Source: Halopelagius inordinatus (GTDB lineage: Archaea > Halobacteriota > Halobacteria > Halobacteriales > Haloferacaceae). From it: 64,000 nt of DNA. The notes beneath the pieces are model-generated. The model was given only the letters and a program-made list of their open reading frames with translations. It was not told where the DNA came from and searched no databases. The position numbers and the translations under genes were made by a program. The stretch lies in NCBI RefSeq assembly GCF_900113245.1, contig NZ_FOOQ01000003.1, positions 62,001-126,000 on the forward strand, in the 5' to 3' direction. Within the stretch, counting starts at the first letter, position 1, and each line of letters begins with the position of its first letter. Positions 44,644-62,556 of the stretch are shown one piece after another.

Positions 44644-44842
44644 GGTGCTCAGAGAACTCCTCGTCGGTAGATACGACGCCGAATCAATAAATAATGGCCC
44701 CCTCTTCGACCAACAGTCACACGGCTGTTCGCCCGTTTCCGCATCAGTAGAACTAAGTCTGACCTGAATGGTAACCCGTACGTGTTCGGACGGTTACACG
44801 AGTGACCGTACGGTCGATGCCTCTCTCGAGGGACGTGTCCAC

Positions 44843-46294
44843 ATGAATCTCGCAAAATCGAGCGTCAAACTCGCGGTCGCGAGCGGCGGAAGCGCGGCGA
44901 TAACGTTCGGCGGCGTAGCCCTCTTCGCGCGGTTGCTCCCGCCGGCGGAACTCGGCGTCTTCTTCCTCTTCGAGGCGCTCTTAGGCATGCTATTCATCCC
45001 CGCCGACTTCGGTATCCGCGGCGCGTTGCAAAAGCGGATAAGCGAGGGCTCGAACCCCGGTCAGATGCTGACGACGGCGGTCCTGTTGAAAGCCGTCCCG
45101 CTCTCCATCGTCGTGACCGCCATCCTCGTAGCTCGTCCCTGGATAAACGGGTACGTCGGCGAGACCATCGCGGTGTGGCTCGCAGTCGCCATCGTCGGCT
45201 ACGAACTGTTTCAGCTCGGCATCGACGTTCTCAGCGGCGAGTTGCGCGTGGGCGAGACGGCGGGCATCCGCCTCGCTCAGAAAATCGTCTGGTTAGTCGC
45301 CGGATACGTTCTCGTCGAGCAGGGATACGGAGTTCGCGGCCTGATATTCGGACTGATCGCTGGCTACGCGGTCTCATTTCTGTGGGGGATGTACCGCCGG
45401 TCGACGCCGTTTCTCCGCCCGACGTTCGGCGAGGCGCACTCGCTCGTTTCCTACTCTCGCTACAACTTCGTTTCGGCGATAAGCGGATACTTCTACAGTT
45501 GGATGGACGTCGCTCTCATCGGCCTGTTCTTGACCACCTCTCACGTCAGCACGTACGAGGCCGCGTGGCGGGTGAGCGCAGTCGCCGTGTTGGGGAGTAC
45601 GGCGATCGCCCAGACCATCTTCCCGCAAGTCAGTCGGTGGGACGCCGACCAAGCGAGAGACCGAATCGAGCGGCTCATTCCGCGGACGGTCCTCCCGTCG
45701 CTCATTCTGGTTGTCCCCGCGTTCTTCGGCACGCTGTTGTTCTCCCGAGAGATTCTCGGACTCGTCTTCGGGTCGGAGTACACGGTCGCGTGGCTGGTGC
45801 TCATCATCCTGATGGGCGAGAAGATATTCCAAGCAGTTCACAATATCACCGGGCGTTCGCTTCAGGCCATCGACTACCCGAATCTCGCCGCCCGCGCGGC
45901 GATTATCGCCATCGCCATCAATCTCGCTTTGAACGTGCCGCTCATCCAGTTGTACGGCATCGCCGGGGCCGCGGTGGCGACCGGCATCTCGTTCGTGGTC
46001 AACGCACTCCTCTGCGTCCGCTATCTCTCTCGGTTCATCGACGTTACGATTCCGTGGACGGACCTCGGTTGGGTACTCGCGTCGTCTCTCGGGATGACGC
46101 TGGTGCTTCTCGTCGTGCAGTCTACGGTCCGCGTTGACTCTCTCGTCCGACTCGCGTTCGTCATCTGCGTCGGAGTGGTCGCCTACGCCGGATTCGTCCT
46201 CGCGTCGCCACCGCTCCGCGAGCAGATACAGCGCAGTGCGCGACTGTTGCGGTCGGACCAACCGCGGACCGACCCGACGAACGGTGACGACTGA
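44843..46294 (+). CDS. Oligosaccharide flippase (Wzx/MATE-like)
   Basis: 483 residues from ATG 44843 (MNLAKSSVKLAVASG). About 14 hydrophobic segments, with the typical polysaccharide-transporter openings (FEALLGMLFIPADFGIRGAL) and C-terminal GIAGAAVATGISFVVN. It would move lipid-linked repeat units across the membrane, for a surface polysaccharide or for protein glycosylation. Its position among glycosyltransferase, carbamoyltransferase and lyase genes supports this. Confidence 0.88.
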   Translation: MNLAKSSVKLAVASGGSAAITFGGVALFARLLPPAELGVFFLFEALLGMLFIPADFGIRGALQKRISEGSNPGQMLTTAVLLKAVPLSIVVTAILVARPWINGYVGETIAVWLAVAIVGYELFQLGIDVLSGELRVGETAGIRLAQKIVWLVAGYVLVEQGYGVRGLIFGLIAGYAVSFLWGMYRRSTPFLRPTFGEAHSLVSYSRYNFVSAISGYFYSWMDVALIGLFLTTSHVSTYEAAWRVSAVAVLGSTAIAQTIFPQVSRWDADQARDRIERLIPRTVLPSLILVVPAFFGTLLFSREILGLVFGSEYTVAWLVLIILMGEKIFQAVHNITGRSLQAIDYPNLAARAAIIAIAINLALNVPLIQLYGIAGAAVATGISFVVNALLCVRYLSRFIDVTIPWTDLGWVLASSLGMTLVLLVVQSTVRVDSLVRLAFVICVGVVAYAGFVLASPPLREQIQRSARLLRSDQPRTDPTNGDD

Positions 46295-46359: not shown

Positions 46360-48123
46360 TTACTTGGCGGGTTCCGCCGCCTCTTCGCGCCGAACCTCTC
46401 CGCGGTCGATCTGTTTTTTCTCCACGACGCGGTCGCCGAGGACGAGGAGGTCGAGCCCCATCCCGAAGAAGTCCTTGATGGCCTCCGACGGCGTGTTCAC
46501 GATCGGTTCGCCGTGGTCGTTGAACGAGGTATTCAGGACGACCGGAACGCCGGTGATATCCTCGAACTCGGAGATCAACCGGTGGTACCGGGGGTTCTGG
46601 TCCTCTCGGACGGTCTGGGGCCGCGTCGTCTCGTCCGCGGGGTGGAGCACTGCGGTGACGTCGTCTTTCTTCTCCTCTCTCGCGTCGAACGTCTTTATCA
46701 TGTACGGCGACGGTTCCGGGTTTTCGAGGTAGTCGTCGATGGCTTCTTCGAGCATCGACGGCGCGAACGGGCGCCACTCTTCGCGGTGTTTGACGAACTC
46801 GTTGACCCGGTCGAGAGAGTCTCTCGTTCGGGGGTCGGCGAGGATACTGCGGTTACCGAGGGCTCGCGGGCCCATCTCCAACTGTCCTTGGAACCACCCG
46901 ACCAACGCGCCGTCGGCGAGTCGCTCTGCGACCATCCGCTCTACGTCGTCCGGCGCCGAGTACTCTATCTTGTTGACGTCTAACTTCGCTTCGATCTGTT
47001 CTGTCGTGTACTCCGGTCCCCAGTAGACCGTGCTCATTTCGGGGACGTCCTCGGGACGGTATTCGAGCATCCCCGCACCGAGTGCGCTTCCGGCGTCGTT
47101 CGACACCGGCTGGATGAACAACTCGTCGACGCGGTCTAGCTCCATGACGCGCTTGTTCATCTTACAGTTGAGCGCCACTCCTCCGGCGAGTGCGACGTTT
47201 CCAACCCCGAGGCGTTCGCAGTACGTATCGACGATGTTCGCGACTATCTCCTCCAGCAGCGACTGGGCGGTGAACGCGAGGTCTTTCTCCCATTGGCTGA
47301 ACTCCGAGGCCGACTGCTTTCGCGGGCGATCGAAGAGTTCTTCGAGACGGCTCGTCGCGTACTCGAAGCCCTGCGAGAGTTCCGTGATGTCGTAGTCCGC
47401 TCCCGTCTCGACGAGGCTTCGGAGAGCTCTCTCGATGTTCTCGTTCTTCTCGCCGTACGGCGCGAGTCCCATCACCTTCCCCTCTCCGTTGTTCGGGTAG
47501 AAACCGAGGAACTTGGTCACCGCTCCGTAGAAGTACCCGAGGCTGTTCGTGTAGTCGTGCGTCTTGAGTCGTGTGAGCCCCGATTCGTCGCCCCACCAGA
47601 CGACTGTCGCGTCGCGTTCGCCGCGGGCGTCCATCGTGACGACGAGTGCCTCGTCGAACGACGTCGGGTAGAACGCGCTCGCCGCGTGCGACTTGTGGTG
47701 TTCGCGCGTTACGACGGGGGGCGGTGAGGGGTCCACATCTCGGAGGTGGCTCTCGACGGTCCGTTTGCCGAACACTCCCGAGCGGAGTTCCGAGCTAACC
47801 CGCCAACCGGCGTGTTTCGCCCGGTCGAGCACTGGTCCGTCCTGGGAGACCATCTGTTGGACCAGGTTCGGGACCATCCGCGGAAACAGCGACGGCTTCC
47901 ACGGGACGACGACCTTCTCGACGTCGGAAAGCGAGATATCTCGCGAGTCGAGACACGCGCCGATGGCCTGGCGGGGGAAGGTGTTCATCGCGTGCTTCTG
48001 ACGCGTGAGTCGCTCTTCCTCTATACCGAAGACCGGCTTGCCGTCCTCGAACAGGACCGCGGCAGGATCGTGCGAACCCGCTCCCCCCACTCCTGGGTTT
48101 ATCGAGAGTACGTACTGAGTCAT
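46360..48123 (-). CDS. Carbamoyltransferase (NodU/TobZ family)
   Basis: 587 residues from ATG 48123 (MTQYVLSINPG), with TATTTTAA 25 nt ahead. The N-terminal Kae1-like domain carries HHKSHAASAFYP (metal-binding His pair) and GGVALNCKMN. The C-terminal domain has GPRALGNRSILADPR and NTSFNDHGEPIV. The family transfers carbamoyl from carbamoyl phosphate to hydroxyls of sugars or small molecules. In this region it probably carbamoylates the surface glycan. Confidence 0.92.
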   Translation of the reverse strand: MTQYVLSINPGVGGAGSHDPAAVLFEDGKPVFGIEEERLTRQKHAMNTFPRQAIGACLDSRDISLSDVEKVVVPWKPSLFPRMVPNLVQQMVSQDGPVLDRAKHAGWRVSSELRSGVFGKRTVESHLRDVDPSPPPVVTREHHKSHAASAFYPTSFDEALVVTMDARGERDATVVWWGDESGLTRLKTHDYTNSLGYFYGAVTKFLGFYPNNGEGKVMGLAPYGEKNENIERALRSLVETGADYDITELSQGFEYATSRLEELFDRPRKQSASEFSQWEKDLAFTAQSLLEEIVANIVDTYCERLGVGNVALAGGVALNCKMNKRVMELDRVDELFIQPVSNDAGSALGAGMLEYRPEDVPEMSTVYWGPEYTTEQIEAKLDVNKIEYSAPDDVERMVAERLADGALVGWFQGQLEMGPRALGNRSILADPRTRDSLDRVNEFVKHREEWRPFAPSMLEEAIDDYLENPEPSPYMIKTFDAREEKKDDVTAVLHPADETTRPQTVREDQNPRYHRLISEFEDITGVPVVLNTSFNDHGEPIVNTPSEAIKDFFGMGLDLLVLGDRVVEKKQIDRGEVRREEAAEPAK

Positions 48124-48147
48124 CAATTCTATACATACGGTTGTCAT

Positions 48148-48273: not shown

Positions 48274-48972
48274 TCAGTAGTCGCTCGGGTCGATGGTCTG
48301 TCCGTCCAGAACCGCGCTTCCGTCGACCTGTAGTGAGAGACTGGCGAGCGTTCCATCGAACTCGAACGTCTCAGGTCGCTTACCACCTTTGATGCCACCT
48401 TCGATTAGGACAGTTCCGTCGCTTTGGGTCGTGACGGTGTCGCCCGAGTTGAGATTCGTGGTGTTCAGCAACTCGCCGTCGATGACTATCCTGTACGTAC
48501 TCCACGACGCACCGTCTGCGGGGACAATCTCCAGTAGATGTGTGCCGTCCGTCGTGGCGGTCGAACCGTCCGTGGTATCTGAGGAACTATCCGTCCCGTC
48601 GGACGTTCCACCAGTTCCCACGGCGAGGGACTCGACGCCGCTGTCTAGCTGCACTTTCAACGTGTCAGTGTCGGATCGGTACCAGATTCGACCCGTCTCG
48701 CCGTCGGTCGGGTCGTTCGTCGTGGATTCGACGGCGAAGTCCTGTCGGGGTTGCGGCGTCGCTTCCACCCATTGCTCACCGTCGCCCAAGAAGCGTCGGC
48801 CGGTATCGGTCGCGAGGAACTTCGCGCCTTCTTTCGGCGTATACTCGGCGGTGTTCCCCTCGACGTCGCGGATTTCGACGTCGGTGTCGATCTTCTCGAA
48901 GTTTTCGTTCAGCGGTACGTGCCAGTCGGTCGCTCCCTTTTCAGGCAGGCTGTAGTTGTGATTGTCGGTCAT
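48274..48972 (-). CDS. Modular protein with TDWHVPLNENF N-terminal domain
   Basis: 232 residues, no signal peptide. Residues 1-115 match the N-terminal half of the neighbour at 49185: both have TDWHVPLNENF, EGAKF, DTGRR and an RIWYRSD or ALWYRTD segment. This looks like the leader domain of phage-tail-like or adhesin proteins. A Ser/Thr/Asp linker (118-142) joins it to a small C-terminal beta domain (HLLEIVPADGASWSTYRIVI, FDGTLASLSLQVDGS). Secretion route and function are unknown. Confidence 0.6.
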   Translation of the reverse strand: MTDNHNYSLPEKGATDWHVPLNENFEKIDTDVEIRDVEGNTAEYTPKEGAKFLATDTGRRFLGDGEQWVEATPQPRQDFAVESTTNDPTDGETGRIWYRSDTDTLKVQLDSGVESLAVGTGGTSDGTDSSSDTTDGSTATTDGTHLLEIVPADGASWSTYRIVIDGELLNTTNLNSGDTVTTQSDGTVLIEGGIKGGKRPETFEFDGTLASLSLQVDGSAVLDGQTIDPSDY

Positions 48973-48984
48973 TGGTTCGTATAG

Positions 48985-49188
48985 TCAGATGTTCTCGTCT
49001 ATTCGTTCGTCCGAGACCCGTTTCTCGTCGAAGTACGCCCTGTTGTTCGCTGGGGACGGCTTCCCGTCCCGGTCGGTGCTCTCCTCGTCAACCCCCGTCT
49101 CCGCGAGACCCATATCCGTCGTGGACTCCTGGTGGGCATCCTCACGCGGCCCCTGTTCGAGGTTCTCGTCCGAGGCGATGCGAATCAC
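48985..49188 (-). CDS. Small acidic hydrophilic protein
   Basis: 67 residues from GTG 49188, overlapping the upstream stop by GTGA, so it is translated as part of the lyase-like operon. It is rich in Asp, Glu and Arg with no hydrophobic segment (GLAETGVDEESTDRDGKPS). No family recognised. The coupling argues that it is real, the composition argues for caution. Confidence 0.45.
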   Translation of the reverse strand: MIRIASDENLEQGPREDAHQESTTDMGLAETGVDEESTDRDGKPSPANNRAYFDEKRVSDERIDENI

Positions 49189-50285
49189 AGTTGCTGATTC
49201 TCCCAGAGTTGTACGTCGTCGATGTACAGCGCCATATCGTTACCAGGCGTCCAGCCGCCGCCCATGAACACGTCCAGCCACCATTCACCGACGGCGACGC
49301 TGTCCATCGTTCGGAAGCGCACCGACGTGTCTTCGTAAGCGAGTTTTCCGTCCACCCACGCCCGCAACACGCCGTTCGAGCTTCCGACGTCGTTTACCTC
49401 GACGTACTGGTCGATGCGGTACCACTGCCCGAATCGAATCTCCCCGTTCTCGTTCCAGTCGTCGGAACTGCCGTAGCCGCCATCTTTCCCCGGCAGGTAG
49501 CTGTACCATCCTAACCGAGTGTCGCCTCCGCTCTTGGGCGGCCGGAACGACCCCCGCGTCGACCACGAATCATCGACGCTCCCGCCGCCGTGGGCCGACC
49601 CGTGCGTGAGGTCGGCGAATCCGGGCAACTTGCCCCCGTTCACGTCCCACGGCTTATCGTGCGTTCCGAGGCCCCAGTTCTCGCCGAGATACAACCAGTA
49701 TCTCGCGTGGACGGTGTCGGGCCGTCGGCTCCAGTTGTCGGCGAAGCGAAAGTGCATGTTCGCTCCGGTGCGTTCGCCCTCGTAGAGTTGGACGCGGAGG
49801 GCACGCCCCGACTGCGACGGCGCAGACACGGTGTCGTTGTGGTCGTCCTTGATACCCGTGAAAGCGCTGCGCCACGCGTCGCCGTCGAACGTGACGTGCG
49901 TCTTGGCGTCGTTCGTTTTCGGGGCCGGTCCGCCGGCGAGTGTGACGACGCCGGAGTCGAGGCGCGCGCGCACCTCGTCGACGTCCGTTCGGTACCACAG
50001 CGCACCGACGGGCGCGTCAGCGGGGTCTTCCGTCTCCCGTGGAAGGGTAGTCTCGGATGGCGAGTGCGAGGGGATATCGACCCAGTCGGTTCCGTTTCCG
50101 AGATATCTCCGTCCCGTGTCCACCGCGAAGAACTTCGCCCCTTCGTTCGGCGCGTATTGGGACAAGGCATCCTCCGTATCGCGGACTTCGACGTCAGCAT
50201 CTATCGACGCGAAGTTTTCGTTCAGCGGGACGTGCCAGTCAGTTGTCCCTTCTGCTGGCGTCCCGTAGTCGTGATTTAAAGTCAT
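49185..50285 (-). CDS. Modular polysaccharide-lyase-14-like protein
   Basis: 366 residues, no signal peptide. Residues 1-115 are the TDWHVPLNENF module shared with the protein at 48274. Residues about 130-366 form a jelly-roll domain like polysaccharide lyase family 14: KLPGFADLTHGSAHGGG, WSTRGSFRPP, GWYSYLPGKDG, RFGQWYRIDQYVEVN, GVLRAWVDGKLAYEDT and GGGWTPGNDMALYIDDV. The same domain recurs at 50504. It may cleave or bind a uronate-containing glycan. It is coupled to the small gene at 48985. Confidence 0.72.
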   Translation of the reverse strand: MTLNHDYGTPAEGTTDWHVPLNENFASIDADVEVRDTEDALSQYAPNEGAKFFAVDTGRRYLGNGTDWVDIPSHSPSETTLPRETEDPADAPVGALWYRTDVDEVRARLDSGVVTLAGGPAPKTNDAKTHVTFDGDAWRSAFTGIKDDHNDTVSAPSQSGRALRVQLYEGERTGANMHFRFADNWSRRPDTVHARYWLYLGENWGLGTHDKPWDVNGGKLPGFADLTHGSAHGGGSVDDSWSTRGSFRPPKSGGDTRLGWYSYLPGKDGGYGSSDDWNENGEIRFGQWYRIDQYVEVNDVGSSNGVLRAWVDGKLAYEDTSVRFRTMDSVAVGEWWLDVFMGGGWTPGNDMALYIDDVQLWENQQL

Positions 50286-52945: not shown

Positions 52946-53039
52946 CGACAGTCGGTGCCGTCGTCTCGATTCCAAGCCGGGTAGTGTCTGGACCCACTAT
53001 CGGCGTTAAACCTAATGCCGCGTGTCCGAATTACTCGCC

Positions 53040-53582
53040 ATGATGTTGACACGACGAGACGCGCTTAGTGCTCTTCTCGCCGGTGGTGGGCTGGGAATCG
53101 GTATCTCTCGGATGTCCCTCGACGACGCCGGTGCCTCGAACGGAGGGCAGATGGCAAGCGACGACGTACGTACTCTCGTCGCTGTCGCCGACGTCGTCTA
53201 TCCGTCGGAGGTGACCCCGACCGGCGAGTTCGTCGAGAACTACGTCGGCGGACTTCCCGGACCGCGGACGCAGGCCGTCCTTCGCACCGTTCGATCGCTC
53301 GACGCGCACGCCCGACGAGAGCGGGGGCGTCCGTTCTCCGCTCTCTCGGAGACGCAGCGAGACGCACTGCTCCGGTCGATGGGCGTCGACCGGACCGGCT
53401 CCGACCCGGAGGGAGTGCTCTCCGAGCGGATCCGTTACTACGTGGTCAACCAACTACTGTACGGACTCTACACCTCTCCCCGCGGAAGCACTCTGGTCGG
53501 CATCGACAACCCCGTGGGTCACCCCGGGGGATACGAATCGTACCAGAACCCGCCCTCCGAGTCCGCGTCGGTGGAACGATGA
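53040..53582 (+). CDS. Gluconate 2-dehydrogenase subunit 3 family protein
   Basis: 180 residues from ATG 53040 (MMLTRRDALSALLAGGG), whose RR and hydrophobic run look like a Tat signal. The body, DDVRTLVAVADVVYPSEVTP, LRTVRSLDAHARRERG and GYESYQNPP, matches the small subunit of membrane-bound FAD sugar dehydrogenases. Its stop overlaps the GMC gene (ATGA), so the two are subunits of one complex; the Tat signal probably carries the folded pair out together. No cytochrome c subunit gene follows. Confidence 0.82.
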   Translation: MMLTRRDALSALLAGGGLGIGISRMSLDDAGASNGGQMASDDVRTLVAVADVVYPSEVTPTGEFVENYVGGLPGPRTQAVLRTVRSLDAHARRERGRPFSALSETQRDALLRSMGVDRTGSDPEGVLSERIRYYVVNQLLYGLYTSPRGSTLVGIDNPVGHPGGYESYQNPPSESASVER

Positions 53583-55237
53583 CGCAGGCGACTGACGGGC
53601 AGGACCGAACGCCGTCCGAGAATCCCGACGTCTGCGTCGTCGGTTCCGGACCCGCCGGTGCGCTGGTCGCCTACTCCCTGGCGAGTCGGGGTCACGACGT
53701 GGTCATCCTCGAAGCGGGACCGCGATTCGAACGGTCGGACCGCCTCCAGCAGATGGAGGAGACGATTCGACCGGAGGGAAGTATCGAGGACGTGTGGGAC
53801 GTCGGCGGTGAGCGCGACCGGTACACCTCCTCGGGCGAGACGTTCTACGGACTCAACAAGACGCGCGTGAAAGGCGTCGGCGGGACGACGCTTCACTGGC
53901 TCGGAATCGTGCCTCGACTGCACGAGAAGGACTTCGAGATGAACACGCGGTACGGTCTCGCGTCCGATTGGCCCATCGGTTACGACGACCTTCGACCGTA
54001 CTACGCCCGAGCAGAACGGGAACTGGGAGTCGCCGGCAGTGAAGACAACCCGTTCGAACCGCCGCGGGACGAACCGTTCCCGATGGAGGCGTTCCCTCCG
54101 AGTTACTCGGACTCGCTGTTCGCCGAAGCCTGCGACGAACTCGGCATCACGATGCATTCGATTCCGCAGGCCCGCAACTCCGAGGCGTACGACGGTCGCA
54201 GCGGGTGCGTCGGCTACAGTACGTGTATTCCCGTCTGCCCGTCCGGCGCGAAGTACAGCGCCGACGTCCACGTCCGGAAGGCGGAGTCGGAGGGAGCGCG
54301 CGTCATCGACCGAGTGCCCGTCCAACGACTCGAACACGACGATACCGGCGAACACGTCGAGGCTGCCGTCTACGCCACCCCGGACGGAACGCGACGTCGA
54401 CAGACCGCCGATCGATTCGTGCTGGCCTGTGGCGCGGTCGAGATTCCGCGGCTACTTCTGCTCTCGAAGTCCGACGCCTATCCGGACGGACTGGCGAACT
54501 CCAGCGGCGCTGTCGGTCGATACTTCATGGACCAGCCTATCGTGTCGATAGGGGGCGTGCTGGACCAGCCGACGAATCAAAATCCCATCGGCTATCACAC
54601 GAGTGAGACGCACCAGTTCTACGACCACGACGACCCGTCGCCCGGGAGCATCAAGTTCGTCTTCGAGAACGTCAACCCGATGACCGCCGCTACCCGCGCA
54701 CTCAGAGGCGGGGACGAGAGCACTCGCGGAGACCTTACCGACCTCTTTACGGGCGACTCGTGGGGAGACGAAGCGCTCGAAGAGATGCGAGACGACGTCC
54801 CGAACCAGCGGGTCGGCCTGTTTGCGAATCCGGAACTGCTCCCGCGCGAAAAGAACAGAGTCGTTCTCGACGAGTCCCGCACCGACCAGTTCGGAAATCC
54901 GGCCCCGAACGTCTCGTGGAACATCGGTTCGCACGCCCGCGAGACGATGGAACACGCCCGGGAGATACAACACCGAGTCATGGACGAGATGGACGCAGAG
55001 ATCACACACGAGAGCGATCTCTCGTCTCCGAGACCCGCCTCGCACAAGATGGGGACGACGCGAATGGGTGACGACCCCGCAGAGAGCGTCGTCCGACCGA
55101 CGCTTCGGACGCACGACCTACGGAATCTGTACATCGCGTCGGGTAGCGTCTTCGTGACCGGCGGCGCGATGAACCCGACGCTAACCATCGCGGCGCTCGC
55201 GCTCAAGGCGGCCGACCACATCGACGAGAGCCTGTAG
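53579..55237 (+). CDS. GMC-family FAD oxidoreductase (sugar/alcohol dehydrogenase)
   Basis: 552 residues. FAD loop VVGSGPAGALVAYSLASRGH, ILEAGPR, the VKGVGGTTLHWLG segment, a Cys-containing GCVGYSTCIPVCPSGAKYS segment, and the C-terminal GSVFVTGGAMNPTLTIAALALKAA with the catalytic His/Asn region (HKMGTTRMGDD). It resembles the large subunit of gluconate or 2-keto-gluconate dehydrogenase. It has no signal of its own and overlaps the small-subunit gene by 4 nt. It may oxidise a sugar released from the surface glycan. Confidence 0.9.
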   Translation: MTQATDGQDRTPSENPDVCVVGSGPAGALVAYSLASRGHDVVILEAGPRFERSDRLQQMEETIRPEGSIEDVWDVGGERDRYTSSGETFYGLNKTRVKGVGGTTLHWLGIVPRLHEKDFEMNTRYGLASDWPIGYDDLRPYYARAERELGVAGSEDNPFEPPRDEPFPMEAFPPSYSDSLFAEACDELGITMHSIPQARNSEAYDGRSGCVGYSTCIPVCPSGAKYSADVHVRKAESEGARVIDRVPVQRLEHDDTGEHVEAAVYATPDGTRRRQTADRFVLACGAVEIPRLLLLSKSDAYPDGLANSSGAVGRYFMDQPIVSIGGVLDQPTNQNPIGYHTSETHQFYDHDDPSPGSIKFVFENVNPMTAATRALRGGDESTRGDLTDLFTGDSWGDEALEEMRDDVPNQRVGLFANPELLPREKNRVVLDESRTDQFGNPAPNVSWNIGSHARETMEHAREIQHRVMDEMDAEITHESDLSSPRPASHKMGTTRMGDDPAESVVRPTLRTHDLRNLYIASGSVFVTGGAMNPTLTIAALALKAADHIDESL

Positions 55238-55396: not shown

Positions 55397-56119
55397 ATGG
55401 AAGAGCAAGACAGCACAGACGGGGAGGGGGAAGGCAGTATTCGGGTCGGCCGTCGGTCCTATCTAGCACTCGCAGGGACAGTCGTCACCGGCCTCGCGGG
55501 GTGTACCGGCAAGGAGTCGTCGGCCGAGCCAGTGGTGACGGAAGCGGTCGAAGCGTTCGGGTACGGGGGCGTCGCACTCGTCGCTCGGGAGGCCGTCGCG
55601 GTGAGTTCGGCCGGGTCGGTCGACTCGTTGAGTTCGGCGACCGAAGCCGAACCGAACGACTCCCGGGCGAACGCGACGAAGATTTCGCTCGGGACGGAGA
55701 CGACGGCGGAACTGACGGCGGGCGACGCGGACTGGTTCGCCTTCGACGCCAGCGCGGGCGACGAACTCGCACTTCACCTCTCTCGCGAGAGCGGTGACGG
55801 AATCGTCGGAGCGCTTCTGTACGACAGCGAAGGGAGCTTCCTCGATATGGTGTACGCGGGAAGCGCCACTCCGGGTGCCGTCACCGCGAACGCCGACACC
55901 TCGGGGACCTACTTCGCAGAGATCGTCGACATCAACGGTGGGACGGGAGCGTACACGGTGAGCGTTACGAACGGTGAGACGTCGACGGCCACGCCGACGC
56001 CGACTCCGACTCCGACGCCGACACCCACGCCGACACCGACGCCGACACCGACGCCCACGCCGACGTCTGACGACTACGGACAGCAGAAATACGGGGAGTT
56101 AGGCTACGGCGGAGTCTAA
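55397..56119 (+). CDS. Tat lipoprotein with PPC-like domain and GYGGV C-terminus
   Basis: 240 residues. Twin Arg at 19-20 and lipobox LAGC (Cys36). Residues about 80-195 form a bacterial pre-peptidase C-terminal (PPC)-like beta domain (EPNDSRANATKISLG, DWFAFDASAGDELALHL, SGTYFAEIVDINGG, AYTVSV). A run of Thr-Pro repeats (about 198-222) leads to the end DDYGQQKYGELGYGGV. A related FGYGGV occurs at 54-59, just after the lipobox. The exported location is clear; the function is not. Confidence 0.65.
   Translation: MEEQDSTDGEGEGSIRVGRRSYLALAGTVVTGLAGCTGKESSAEPVVTEAVEAFGYGGVALVAREAVAVSSAGSVDSLSSATEAEPNDSRANATKISLGTETTAELTAGDADWFAFDASAGDELALHLSRESGDGIVGALLYDSEGSFLDMVYAGSATPGAVTANADTSGTYFAEIVDINGGTGAYTVSVTNGETSTATPTPTPTPTPTPTPTPTPTPTPTPTSDDYGQQKYGELGYGGV
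55991..56067 (+). repeat. Thr-Pro coding hexanucleotide repeat
   Basis: About a dozen tandem units of ACGCCG and close variants (ACTCCG, ACACCG, ACGCCC) encode an alternating Thr-Pro linker. Such tracts are prone to slippage, so copy number is likely to vary between strains. Confidence 0.8.
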
Positions 56120-57879: not shown

Positions 57880-58929
57880 TCACGTTCGCGTCCGTTGATA
57901 CGCGTCTCGCGTCCGAGCGGCGATTCCCCCCCAGTCGAGTTCCGTCACGCGCTCGTAGTTTCGGTCACCGATGAGGTCGAGGTCGGCGTCGAGCGCTCGC
58001 ACCAACGCAGCGTCGAGCGATTCGCTGTCTGGGTCGTAGAGTAACTCCGGTTGTGTGCGCAGTAGTTCCGGGAGACAGCCCGTACGCGGTCCGACAACCG
58101 GTTTCCCGAAAGACATGCTGAGGACCGCGCTCCCCGACGTGAGGATGTCCCGGTAGGGGAGTACGACCGCGTCCGCCGCGTTGAAGTAGGTCTGGACCTC
58201 CTCCTCGGGGATATAGGAGAGTTCGGTCGCGATTCGAGAGTCTCCCTCGGCGCTGGCTTCGATGGCTCGCGCGAGGGACTCGTCCGTCGGCTTCCCCGCG
58301 ACGAGGAGTCTGACGTCCGGCGATTCGAGCGACCGGACGGTGTCGACGAGACGGGGAATCTGTTTGTAGGGACGGATCTGTCCCAAGTAAAGGAAGACGG
58401 TCGAATCGCGCTCTACTCCGAGACGCTCGCGCGCCTCGCCACGACTCACCGTATTCTCGTGAGCCGAGCAGTAGTGTCCGTGCGGAATGACGTGTACTCG
58501 GGAGTCCGTCGGCAGTCGGTACTGTTCGACGACCGAGTCGCGGGCTGCCTCGCAGTGAACGATGATTTCGTCGGCCAAGCGAGCGTAGAGGCGTCGCCAA
58601 AACAGTTCGAACCGCGGGCGACGGCGTTCGTGTTCGAGTAGGTTGTGGACGGTCCAGACGACTCGGACCCCGAGCAACTTCGCGAGGAGCGTCGAGAGAA
58701 CGAAGACGACCGACTTCAGAAGACTCGCGAGGATGCTATCCCCGACGAGAAACGGAGCGATCCAATGTACGTGAACGATATCTGGTCGGGTCTTGAGGGC
58801 GGTCCGAAGCGTCGAGAGCGGGTACCCGCTCGCCAGCGTGACGTCCACGTCCTCGGCGGACAACCCCTCCGAGAGCCGTCTCTGATACGGATTCCCGTCG
58901 GTGAAGTCCGGGAGGAACAAGACCTTCAT
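57880..58929 (-). CDS. Glycosyltransferase family 4
   Basis: 349 residues with a GT-B fold: N-terminal KVLFLPDFTDGNPYQRRL, HVHWIAPFLVGDSI and VVWTVHNLLEHE, then C-terminal VFLYLGQIRPYKQIPRLVDT, RLLVAGKP, and the EX7E-type donor region (AADAVVLPYRDILTSGSAVL). It adds a sugar from an activated donor to a growing lipid-linked glycan on the cytoplasmic side. It lies 64 bp after the phosphodiesterase start, head-to-tail in the same direction. Confidence 0.9.
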   Translation of the reverse strand: MKVLFLPDFTDGNPYQRRLSEGLSAEDVDVTLASGYPLSTLRTALKTRPDIVHVHWIAPFLVGDSILASLLKSVVFVLSTLLAKLLGVRVVWTVHNLLEHERRRPRFELFWRRLYARLADEIIVHCEAARDSVVEQYRLPTDSRVHVIPHGHYCSAHENTVSRGEARERLGVERDSTVFLYLGQIRPYKQIPRLVDTVRSLESPDVRLLVAGKPTDESLARAIEASAEGDSRIATELSYIPEEEVQTYFNAADAVVLPYRDILTSGSAVLSMSFGKPVVGPRTGCLPELLRTQPELLYDPDSESLDAALVRALDADLDLIGDRNYERVTELDWGGIAARTRDAYQRTRT

Positions 58930-61389: not shown

Positions 61390-62556
61390 ATGTCTGTACT
61401 GCTCAAACTCGTTTTCTGGGTGGCGGCTCTCGTTTTGCTCCACGTGTACTTCCTCTATCCGGGGGTCCTATTCGTTCTCGGATCCATCCTCGACCGTTCG
61501 GTGACAAACGAGGTGACGGACGGCCGGTGGCCGTCCGTCTCACTCGTCATCGCCGCCTACAACGAAGAGGAGATCATAGAGCAGAAAATCAAGAACTCGT
61601 TCGAACTCGACTACCCCGAGGAGAAGTTAGAAATCGTCGTCTTCTCCGACGCGTCCTCGGACGACACGGATCAAATCGTCCGCTCGTACGAGGACGAAGG
61701 GGTACGTCTGGAACGCATCGAGGGGAGGGTCGGGAAGACGGCCTGCCAGAACAAGGTGACCGAGAGGTTGGACAGCGATATCGTCGTGTTCTCCGACGCA
61801 GACAGCATGTACGAGGAGGACGCCATCAAACGGCTAATCGAGAAGTTCGGTCCGAACGTCGGGTGCGTCGTCGGGGAACTCTGCTACGACAAGTACGGAG
61901 TCGAAGCCGAGTCGGCCTACAGGACGTTCGAGAAACTGATCAGGCGCTTAGAACCCACGGTGAGTTCGGCCGCCGGCGCGAACGGATCGATATACGCCGT
62001 CAAGCGCTCCTCGTATGTGCCGCTTCCCCCGGATCAGATTAGCGACTTCGCCGAACCGCTGGCTATCGTCCAACGCGGGGAGCGCGTCGAGTACACCTCC
62101 GAGGCGCGAGCGTGGGAGAACACGGGAGAGAACGTCGAGTCGGAGATGTCTCGCCGAATCCGTATCGCCACTCGCTCGTGGCACACGTTCTTCGACTACG
62201 TCGACCTGTTGAATCCGGTCCGCTATCCGTTCTTCAGCTTCGAACTCGCCTCGCACTGGGTCCTGCGTTGGTTCTCTCCGTTGCTCCTCGCGGTGGTCGG
62301 CCTCAGTAACCTCCTGTTGGTCGCCTTGGGAGACAACCCGTTGTACCTCCTTTTGCTCGCCGGCCAGGCGGGGTTCTATCTTCTCGCGACGGTGGGATGG
62401 GCACTGAACCGCTCGGACCTTTCCACACCCCGAGTAGCGTACGTCCCGTACTACTTTCTCGTGTTGAACTACAGCCTCCTCGTCGCCCTCGGAAACGTCG
62501 TCCGAAACCGAAATATCGTCACGTGGGAGACCGAGACGCGGACGAACTCGGACTGA
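61390..62556 (+). CDS. Membrane-bound family 2 glycosyltransferase
   Basis: 388 residues. One N-terminal helix (about 4-27), a GT-A domain starting SLVIAAYNEEEIIEQKI, SDASSDDTD and the DxD motif in VFSDADSMYEEDAI, and three or four C-terminal helices. It resembles cellulose-synthase-like or hyaluronan-type processive transferases, though a simple lipid-linked transferase is possible. It is divergent from the GT-C-like gene and probably part of the same glycan pathway. Confidence 0.9.
   Translation: MSVLLKLVFWVAALVLLHVYFLYPGVLFVLGSILDRSVTNEVTDGRWPSVSLVIAAYNEEEIIEQKIKNSFELDYPEEKLEIVVFSDASSDDTDQIVRSYEDEGVRLERIEGRVGKTACQNKVTERLDSDIVVFSDADSMYEEDAIKRLIEKFGPNVGCVVGELCYDKYGVEAESAYRTFEKLIRRLEPTVSSAAGANGSIYAVKRSSYVPLPPDQISDFAEPLAIVQRGERVEYTSEARAWENTGENVESEMSRRIRIATRSWHTFFDYVDLLNPVRYPFFSFELASHWVLRWFSPLLLAVVGLSNLLLVALGDNPLYLLLLAGQAGFYLLATVGWALNRSDLSTPRVAYVPYYFLVLNYSLLVALGNVVRNRNIVTWETETRTNSD

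Follow-up and report, generated by a model that had tools for sequence, protein, structure and literature searches.

The window analysed here, a stretch of 64,000 nucleotides of Halopelagius inordinatus (positions 62,001 to 126,000 of the forward strand of contig NZ_FOOQ01000003.1, assembly GCF_900113245.1), encodes two neighbouring proteins, P0001 and P0002, which begin with the same fibre-like module, the "head", and have no signal peptide. Across Halobacteria, head genes are paired with genes whose products are exported by the twin-arginine translocation (Tat) pathway, are mostly lipoproteins and end in a short YG repeat, [YF]GxxxYGxxxYGG, hereafter the tag. This genetic pairing is a new finding, and no description of a head–tag system came up in searches of the openly accessible literature. 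We propose that it reflects a viral fibre–baseplate docking pair that was domesticated for surface display, the tag lipoproteins being the partners of the heads and probably exporting them as hitchhikers; we estimate the probability of this reading at about 0.45. Domesticated viral fibres and hitchhiker export are both known, and the head–tag system would be a variant of these.

Pairing of head genes with genes for tagged Tat proteins

The head is found in 102 of 391 Halobacteria genomes, which belong to 43 of 86 genera, and a profile scan of one genome per species (84,980 species) gives 55 head loci, all of them with Halobacteria titles. Its core has about 72 residues; in an alignment of 25 rows, P10, G13, W17, P20, N22, N24, F25, D29, E33, D36, Y44, P46, K51, D56, G63, G65 and W68 are invariant.

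The gene directly upstream of a head often codes for a Tat-signal protein that ends in [YFL]GxxxYGxxxYGG, 0–7 residues from the stop. The domains of these proteins are LamG, CBM35/CBM6 or PPC-like, or there is no folded domain at all, and a second motif, F/YGYGG, is often present just after the signal. A tag gene was found in 38 of 56 stretches (one of which, L050, was scored by a short doubtful open reading frame (ORF) though a full tag gene is also present), and in 31 of these 38 it lies −4 to 39 nt upstream of the head gene on the same strand. Simple pattern tests classify 37 of the 38 as Tat-like and 27 as lipobox-like, and detect the second motif in 29. Where a head gene has a close upstream gene on the same strand, the latter is Tat-like in 25 cases out of 32, versus 21 out of 169 for the other genes of the same stretches (p 2e-13). 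In four stretches the head gene escaped the gene caller, which lowers these counts as well as that of the 54 N-terminal heads, viral ones included, none of which has a signal-like start.

Since the tag was first found in head loci, it was tested genome-wide with a single exact DNA pattern, so that variants, for example those in which L or W replaces a Y or F of the tag, are missed in the counts that follow. The pattern occurs in 94 places, in 75 of the 391 genomes: 68 genomes have both head and tag, 34 the head only, 7 the tag only and 282 neither (odds ratio (OR) 81, p 8e-42). The same pattern in reverse order matches in 27 genomes with an OR of 3.4. The association persists at the level of genera, heads being present in 28 of the 31 genera that have the tag (OR 25, p 1.7e-8). 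Measured against the heads listed for the 391 genomes, 49 of the 94 tag places directly precede a head gene on the same strand, at a distance of 7–120 nt.

We also read 20 further stretches, mostly around tag places that are far from a listed head. Several of them code for minimal anchors that consist of a signal, the F/YGYGG motif, a low-complexity linker and the tag. In L270, fetched for its tag from a genome already in the head list, a divergent head gene overlaps the tag gene by 4 nt. Loci L265 (G367), L261, L262, L266 and L278 code for Tat proteins whose YG repeat stands right after the signal and not at the C-terminus; that of L265 continues into repeats which, by eye, look dockerin-like.

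Two signal-less proteins with a common head

P0001 (48274..48972, minus strand, 232 aa) consists of a head (residues 1–118; 48619..48972, minus strand; core of about 72 aa, MTDNHNYSLPEKGATDWHVPLNENF...GDGEQW), a linker and a small beta domain. In P0002 (49185..50285, minus strand, 366 aa), the head (49932..50285, minus strand) precedes an alginate-lyase-like domain of polysaccharide lyase family 14 (PL14). The two proteins are identical at 62 of 119 positions (52%) in an ungapped BLASTP alignment that runs from residue 1 to about 119 (E 6e-42), a likeness far beyond chance, and BLASTP detects no meaningful similarity beyond that point. A TGA immediately precedes the ATG of P0002 and an in-frame TGA lies five codons 5' of that of P0001, which makes a signal peptide impossible in either protein. 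An earlier, sequence-only reading of this locus had described a common N-terminus that gives way to a lyase-14-like domain in one neighbour and to a small beta domain in the other, neither having a signal peptide, and it was right on each of these points.

Residues 215–355 of P0002 (49221..49643, minus strand) match Polysacc_lyase_14 (PF21294; E 1.1e-13, 51.9 bits for a curated cut-off of 27). The structure model has the beta-jelly-roll fold of PL14, with 5gmt as the best Foldseek match (E 2.9e-13, TMt 0.70), followed by 6kcw and 3gne. The K, S-x-R and Y-x-Y residues that we take, from the work on AkAly30, to be catalytic in PL14 are present within this region as K219, S242-x-R244 and Y261-x-Y263, and 8 of 9 aligned rows retain all five. 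By its profile match and modelled fold, the C-terminus of P0002 is a member of PL14 and a predicted lyase.

Regarding P0001, the structure model predicts a small beta domain at residues 144–227, for which no Pfam family was matched. Comparison of the model with the PDB gives only weak chitin-binding-like matches (Z 6.2), and there are weak matches to many viral fibre and collar models. It was considered that this last domain recurs in a Tat protein of locus L081, but a direct comparison gave no support for it. Between the two genes, an acidic ORF of 67 aa (48985..49188, minus strand; no Pfam family) overlaps the stop codon of P0002; it is not kept in locus L003, from a genome of another genus (G330), where just about 50 nt separate the two heads.

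The window genome contains just two heads, those of P0001 and P0002. In other Halobacteria, the C-termini joined to the head, classed partly by eye and partly by family matches, are PL14 domains, several beta-helices (some matching tail-spike families), S74 chaperones with coiled coils, YadA-like glycine repeats, C1q-like domains and very short ones, so that the idea of a common head with exchangeable, mostly glycan-directed C-termini proves real across the class. The head matches no known cytoplasmic domain and has many copies beyond simple duplicates, so that neither of the outcomes which the sequence-only reading had named as refuting it applies. Six further loci (L083–L088) encode signal-less glycosidase-like or pectate-lyase-like proteins that carry the core motif C-terminally, between a low-complexity linker and a short coiled coil.

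Viral relatives of the head and a viral parallel to the tag

The sequence-only reading had suggested a search for the module in the genome and in haloviruses. Two viral contigs keep most of the head. In IMG/VR, 10 of 95 pattern-matching stretches encode a relative of the head according to the profile. The head of L090 shows 53% identity over residues 1–81 (81 residues) and that of L091 shows 39% over residues 5–68. In both contigs, the gene just before that of the head fibre codes for baseplate J (PF04865; phrog_6). The head is homologous to the fibre proteins of these tailed viruses, and its place directly after baseplate J genes makes it look like a tail-fibre N-terminus. In the other eight IMG/VR relatives, only P..G...W.VPLN.NF..ID is preserved, and it opens proteins that, by eye, resemble phage tail-collar or fibre proteins. 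When the P0002 head was used as a single query against viral contigs and a phage collection, no relative emerged, just two weak Bacillus phage matches over 22 residues; the viral relatives thus surfaced only with a profile. Nothing was found when the head proteins of L090 and L091 were compared with the phage collection, and a search for more viral heads returned the same contigs and L299, a single contig that is cut at its start.

The tag has a viral parallel too. Two genes after the head fibre, L090 encodes a baseplate protein (matches to phrog_1160 and phrog_6277) that begins with YGRGGYGSGTYGDGG, or MSHVGYGRGGYGSGTYGDGGY in a longer form, and its counterpart in L091 begins with a WG version, WGTYEWGNDYYWG. 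The aligned proteins of HATV-2, HRTV-2 and HRTV-27 do not have this YG start. A related arrangement is described for the haloarchaeal virus HFTV1, in which it is the N-terminal end of the baseplate hub that anchors the fibres (PMC12494034).

Of the 19 places with a proviral gpI-like baseplate protein, two (L251, of G060, and L256, of G182) encode one that starts with a short YG/FG repeat, and neither has a head within about 1.5 kb. We also observed a structural-type protein that recurs in many IMG/VR contigs, in loci such as L115, L125, L132 and L147; it has about 500 residues and bears YGxxxYGxxxYGG some 58 residues from its end.

Proposed surface display, its alternatives and known systems

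We propose that the head is a host-encoded copy of the N-terminal docking module of viral tail fibres, and that in haloarchaea it would carry exchangeable C-termini that bind or cut glycans, such as the PL14 lyase and the small beta domain of the window. The signal-less fibre-like proteins would work with Tat-exported, mostly lipoprotein partners that bear the tag at a flexible end, and this peptide may take the place of the viral baseplate peptide. The head would bind the tag directly, in the cytoplasm, and the folded complex could then cross the membrane by Tat hitchhiking; the lipid anchor would keep the fibre, presumably a trimer, at the cell surface, where its C-terminus would act on own or foreign glycans. 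Tat export of a folded complex is the simplest route, since the fibre lacks a signal and the end of the tag gene is often just a few bases away from it. That some tag proteins are nothing but signal, motif, linker and tag is as expected of an anchor.

In the window, the partner of both P0001 and P0002 would be P0005 (55397..56119, plus strand), a Tat lipoprotein with an FGYGG motif shortly after the lipobox (55556..55570, plus strand), a PPC-like domain, a TP linker and a C-terminal YG tag, YGQQKYGELGYGG, followed by V and the stop (56075..56119, plus strand); the protein ends in DDYGQQKYGELGYGGV. Six tag lipoproteins align with P0005 over its whole length; five of them are encoded directly upstream of heads and the sixth (L083) directly upstream of a protein with a C-terminal core. 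In G330, which has a PL14 head and a second head, a relative of P0005 lies about 8.3 kb from the PL14 head.

Several observations weigh against the docking-pair reading. P0005 is 5.8 kb from P0002 and on the opposite strand, and no tag is present in P0003, whose gene directly precedes that of P0002. Eight other genomes that have heads of this set, seven with PL14-type heads (G019, G022, G056, G082, G146, G148 and G324) and one with a P0001-type head and a broken neighbour (G332), contain neither the exact tag nor a close relative of P0005, which makes the partner of PL14-type heads uncertain. A relaxed tag search near such heads found only the P0005 of the window: PL14-type heads, including that of the window, are mostly without a tag partner. 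More generally, the exact tag pattern is missing from 34 of the 102 head genomes. The viral pair is clear in a single contig (L090), with one loose case (L091): of the places with the YG-repeat pattern in IMG/VR, 84 were read, in 80 of the 120 stretches reported; most belong to a single recurrent structural-type protein or are scattered, and none has a fibre motif in the fetched stretch. The stretches scanned of the cultured haloviruses HATV-2, HRTV-2, HRTV-8 and HRTV-27 contain no head or YG match. The head of P0002 is poorly modelled (predicted local distance difference test, pLDDT, 47–68), that of P0001 being better, and no solved homologue of the head was found among the PDB sequences. Last, a gene neighbourhood cannot prove contact.

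As for the neighbours of the heads, P0003 (50504..51928, minus strand), whose gene is separated from that of P0002 by about 220 nt, has a Tat/lipobox signal and a PL14 domain, and no head. This second PL14 gene was overlooked in the sequence-only reading, as was the gene of P0005. The window heads sit in a glycan/exopolysaccharide cluster, which includes genes for a polysaccharide flippase-like protein (44768..46294, plus strand), a carbamoyltransferase (46360..48147, minus strand), a glycosyltransferase (57880..58929, minus strand) and a family 2 glycosyltransferase (61390..62556, plus strand); a DUF1616 gene is also nearby. Similarly, in the annotated plasmid loci L032 and L033, the heads lie among glycosyltransferase and sulfatase genes. 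The cluster of the window also contains a gluconate-dehydrogenase subunit 3-like gene with a Tat-like start (53022-53582, plus strand), which overlaps a signal-less GMC oxidoreductase gene (53579-55237, plus strand); this is the layout of a known Tat hitchhiker pair.

Another explanation of the pairing is that heads and tag lipoproteins are made together as components of the surface or matrix and never touch, the heads being exported by themselves or by another route. The head genomes in which the exact tag is missing and the PL14-type heads that mostly lack a partner are in its favour, and so are the tag sites far from heads and the proteins in which the motif follows the Tat signal. We nevertheless find it unlikely, since the tight and often overlapping order of tag gene and head gene across many genera, like the minimal anchors made of signal, linker and tag alone, better fits a direct partnership.

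It could also be that the heads are cytoplasmic and act on glycan precursors or on a stored polymer, the lipoprotein being merely co-regulated. The lack of any signal-like start, in P0001 and P0002 as in the other N-terminal heads, is what such proteins would exhibit, and their location in glycan biosynthesis clusters is consistent with it. However, S74 chaperones, tailspike-like beta-helices and PL14 lyases are C-termini typical of extracellular or virion proteins, and, by the simple Tat test, 37 of 38 stretches encode an exported partner. We consider this explanation to be distinctly improbable.

The sequence-only reading had pointed out that such swapping of modules behind a common head is typical of phage tail fibres, of the tips of contractile injection systems and of variable adhesins. 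That the head resembles a fibre N-terminus is well founded, considering its position directly behind baseplate J in L090 and L091 and the S74 partners, and a few head genes do follow an isolated gp19 tube gene (L034 and L048). On the contrary, P0001 and P0002 are most improbable as virion parts of a resident virus or as tips of an injection system such as the archaeal type VI system (PMC11566945). The window genome (G000) has no baseplate J gene and no gp19 tube gene (the gp19 model matches 80 of the 391 genomes), and the window heads are encoded in the glycan cluster, not among tail or baseplate genes. Across the 391 genomes, the occurrence of heads is independent of that of gp19, with 22 genomes shared between the 80 that have gp19 and the 102 that have heads (OR 1.1, p 0.78), and of that of proviral gpI-like genes (5 of 17, OR 1.2). 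On these results we reject a virus or injection-system origin in the window genome; they largely refute the fibre or tip reading there, and make the type VI system an unlikely host for heads. As a side observation, in loci L034, L048 and L072 (Natronosalvus and a Halobacteriales metagenome-assembled genome) an isolated T4 gp19-type tube gene is directly followed by the gene of a head that carries an S74 chaperone, and in L034 and L072 the flanking proteins have about 2000 residues (annotated as pyrroloquinoline quinone, PQQ, propellers in L034).

Last, the local duplication of one surface enzyme gene with decay of the second copy, which the presence of only two copies in the window genome and the 52% identity of the heads could suggest, is scarcely credible, as the pair of PL14 and small beta proteins is found again in G330, both frames being intact, the active-site residues of PL14 are conserved, and the spread of the module already refutes it.

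If the docking-pair reading is correct, a viral attachment interface has become a surface-display device of the host, which offers a ready means of displaying folded proteins on halophiles. In its boldest form, any enzyme or lectin fused to a head could leave the cell in the folded state, through Tat, and be attached to its surface, which would amount to a new principle of export and anchoring, like an archaeal counterpart of the cellulosome. The pairing already ties two previously unlinked sets of "hypothetical proteins" into one system, whose heads occur in half of the sampled haloarchaeal genera; it provides a 13-residue tag to look for, and a possible answer to how signal-less fibre-like or carbohydrate-active proteins reach the haloarchaeal surface.

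Compared with known systems, the closest are the tail fibres of contractile-tailed viruses (L090 and L091), which have the same head module in the same N-terminal place, changing C-termini and a gene located after that of baseplate J; the cellular heads are instead in glycan clusters devoid of tail genes, and some carry enzyme domains. No family model was found to match the head over its cut-off, and none was found for the tag. There is a weak likeness of the head to Mtd_N (PF18454), the N-terminal domain of the major tropism determinant of a Bordetella phage, and to DUF2793, which fits its fibre-like viral relatives, the scores compared lying below the curated cut-offs: at E up to 1, Mtd_N is matched by 16 of the 25 head rows (best 1.2e-4; L090 reaches 18.5 bits for a cut-off of 26.3) and DUF2793 by 7.

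In bacteria, the export by Tat hitchhiking of proteins without a signal of their own is established, for HybOC of E. coli and for PaoABC (PMC4273604); there too, a signal-less protein is encoded together with a partner that has a Tat signal, but these complexes are redox enzymes with cofactors, whereas the proposed partner of the heads bears a short tag peptide and, often, a lipid anchor. P0002 is similar to the PL14 enzymes AkAly30 (5gmt), Aly36B and vAL-1 of a Chlorella virus in its PF21294 match, its predicted fold and its K, SxR and YxY residues; it differs from them by the fused fibre head and the lack of a signal peptide.

In the display of proteins by cohesin and dockerin, a small module borne by many enzymes docks to an anchored partner. 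The head–tag system would work alike; we saw no sequence relation between the two, and the haloarchaeal socket would be a peptide of 13 residues. We tentatively suggest, at somewhat less than even odds, a modular surface display derived from a virus tail, in which the YG-repeat peptide of Tat lipoproteins is the socket and the fibre head is the plug.

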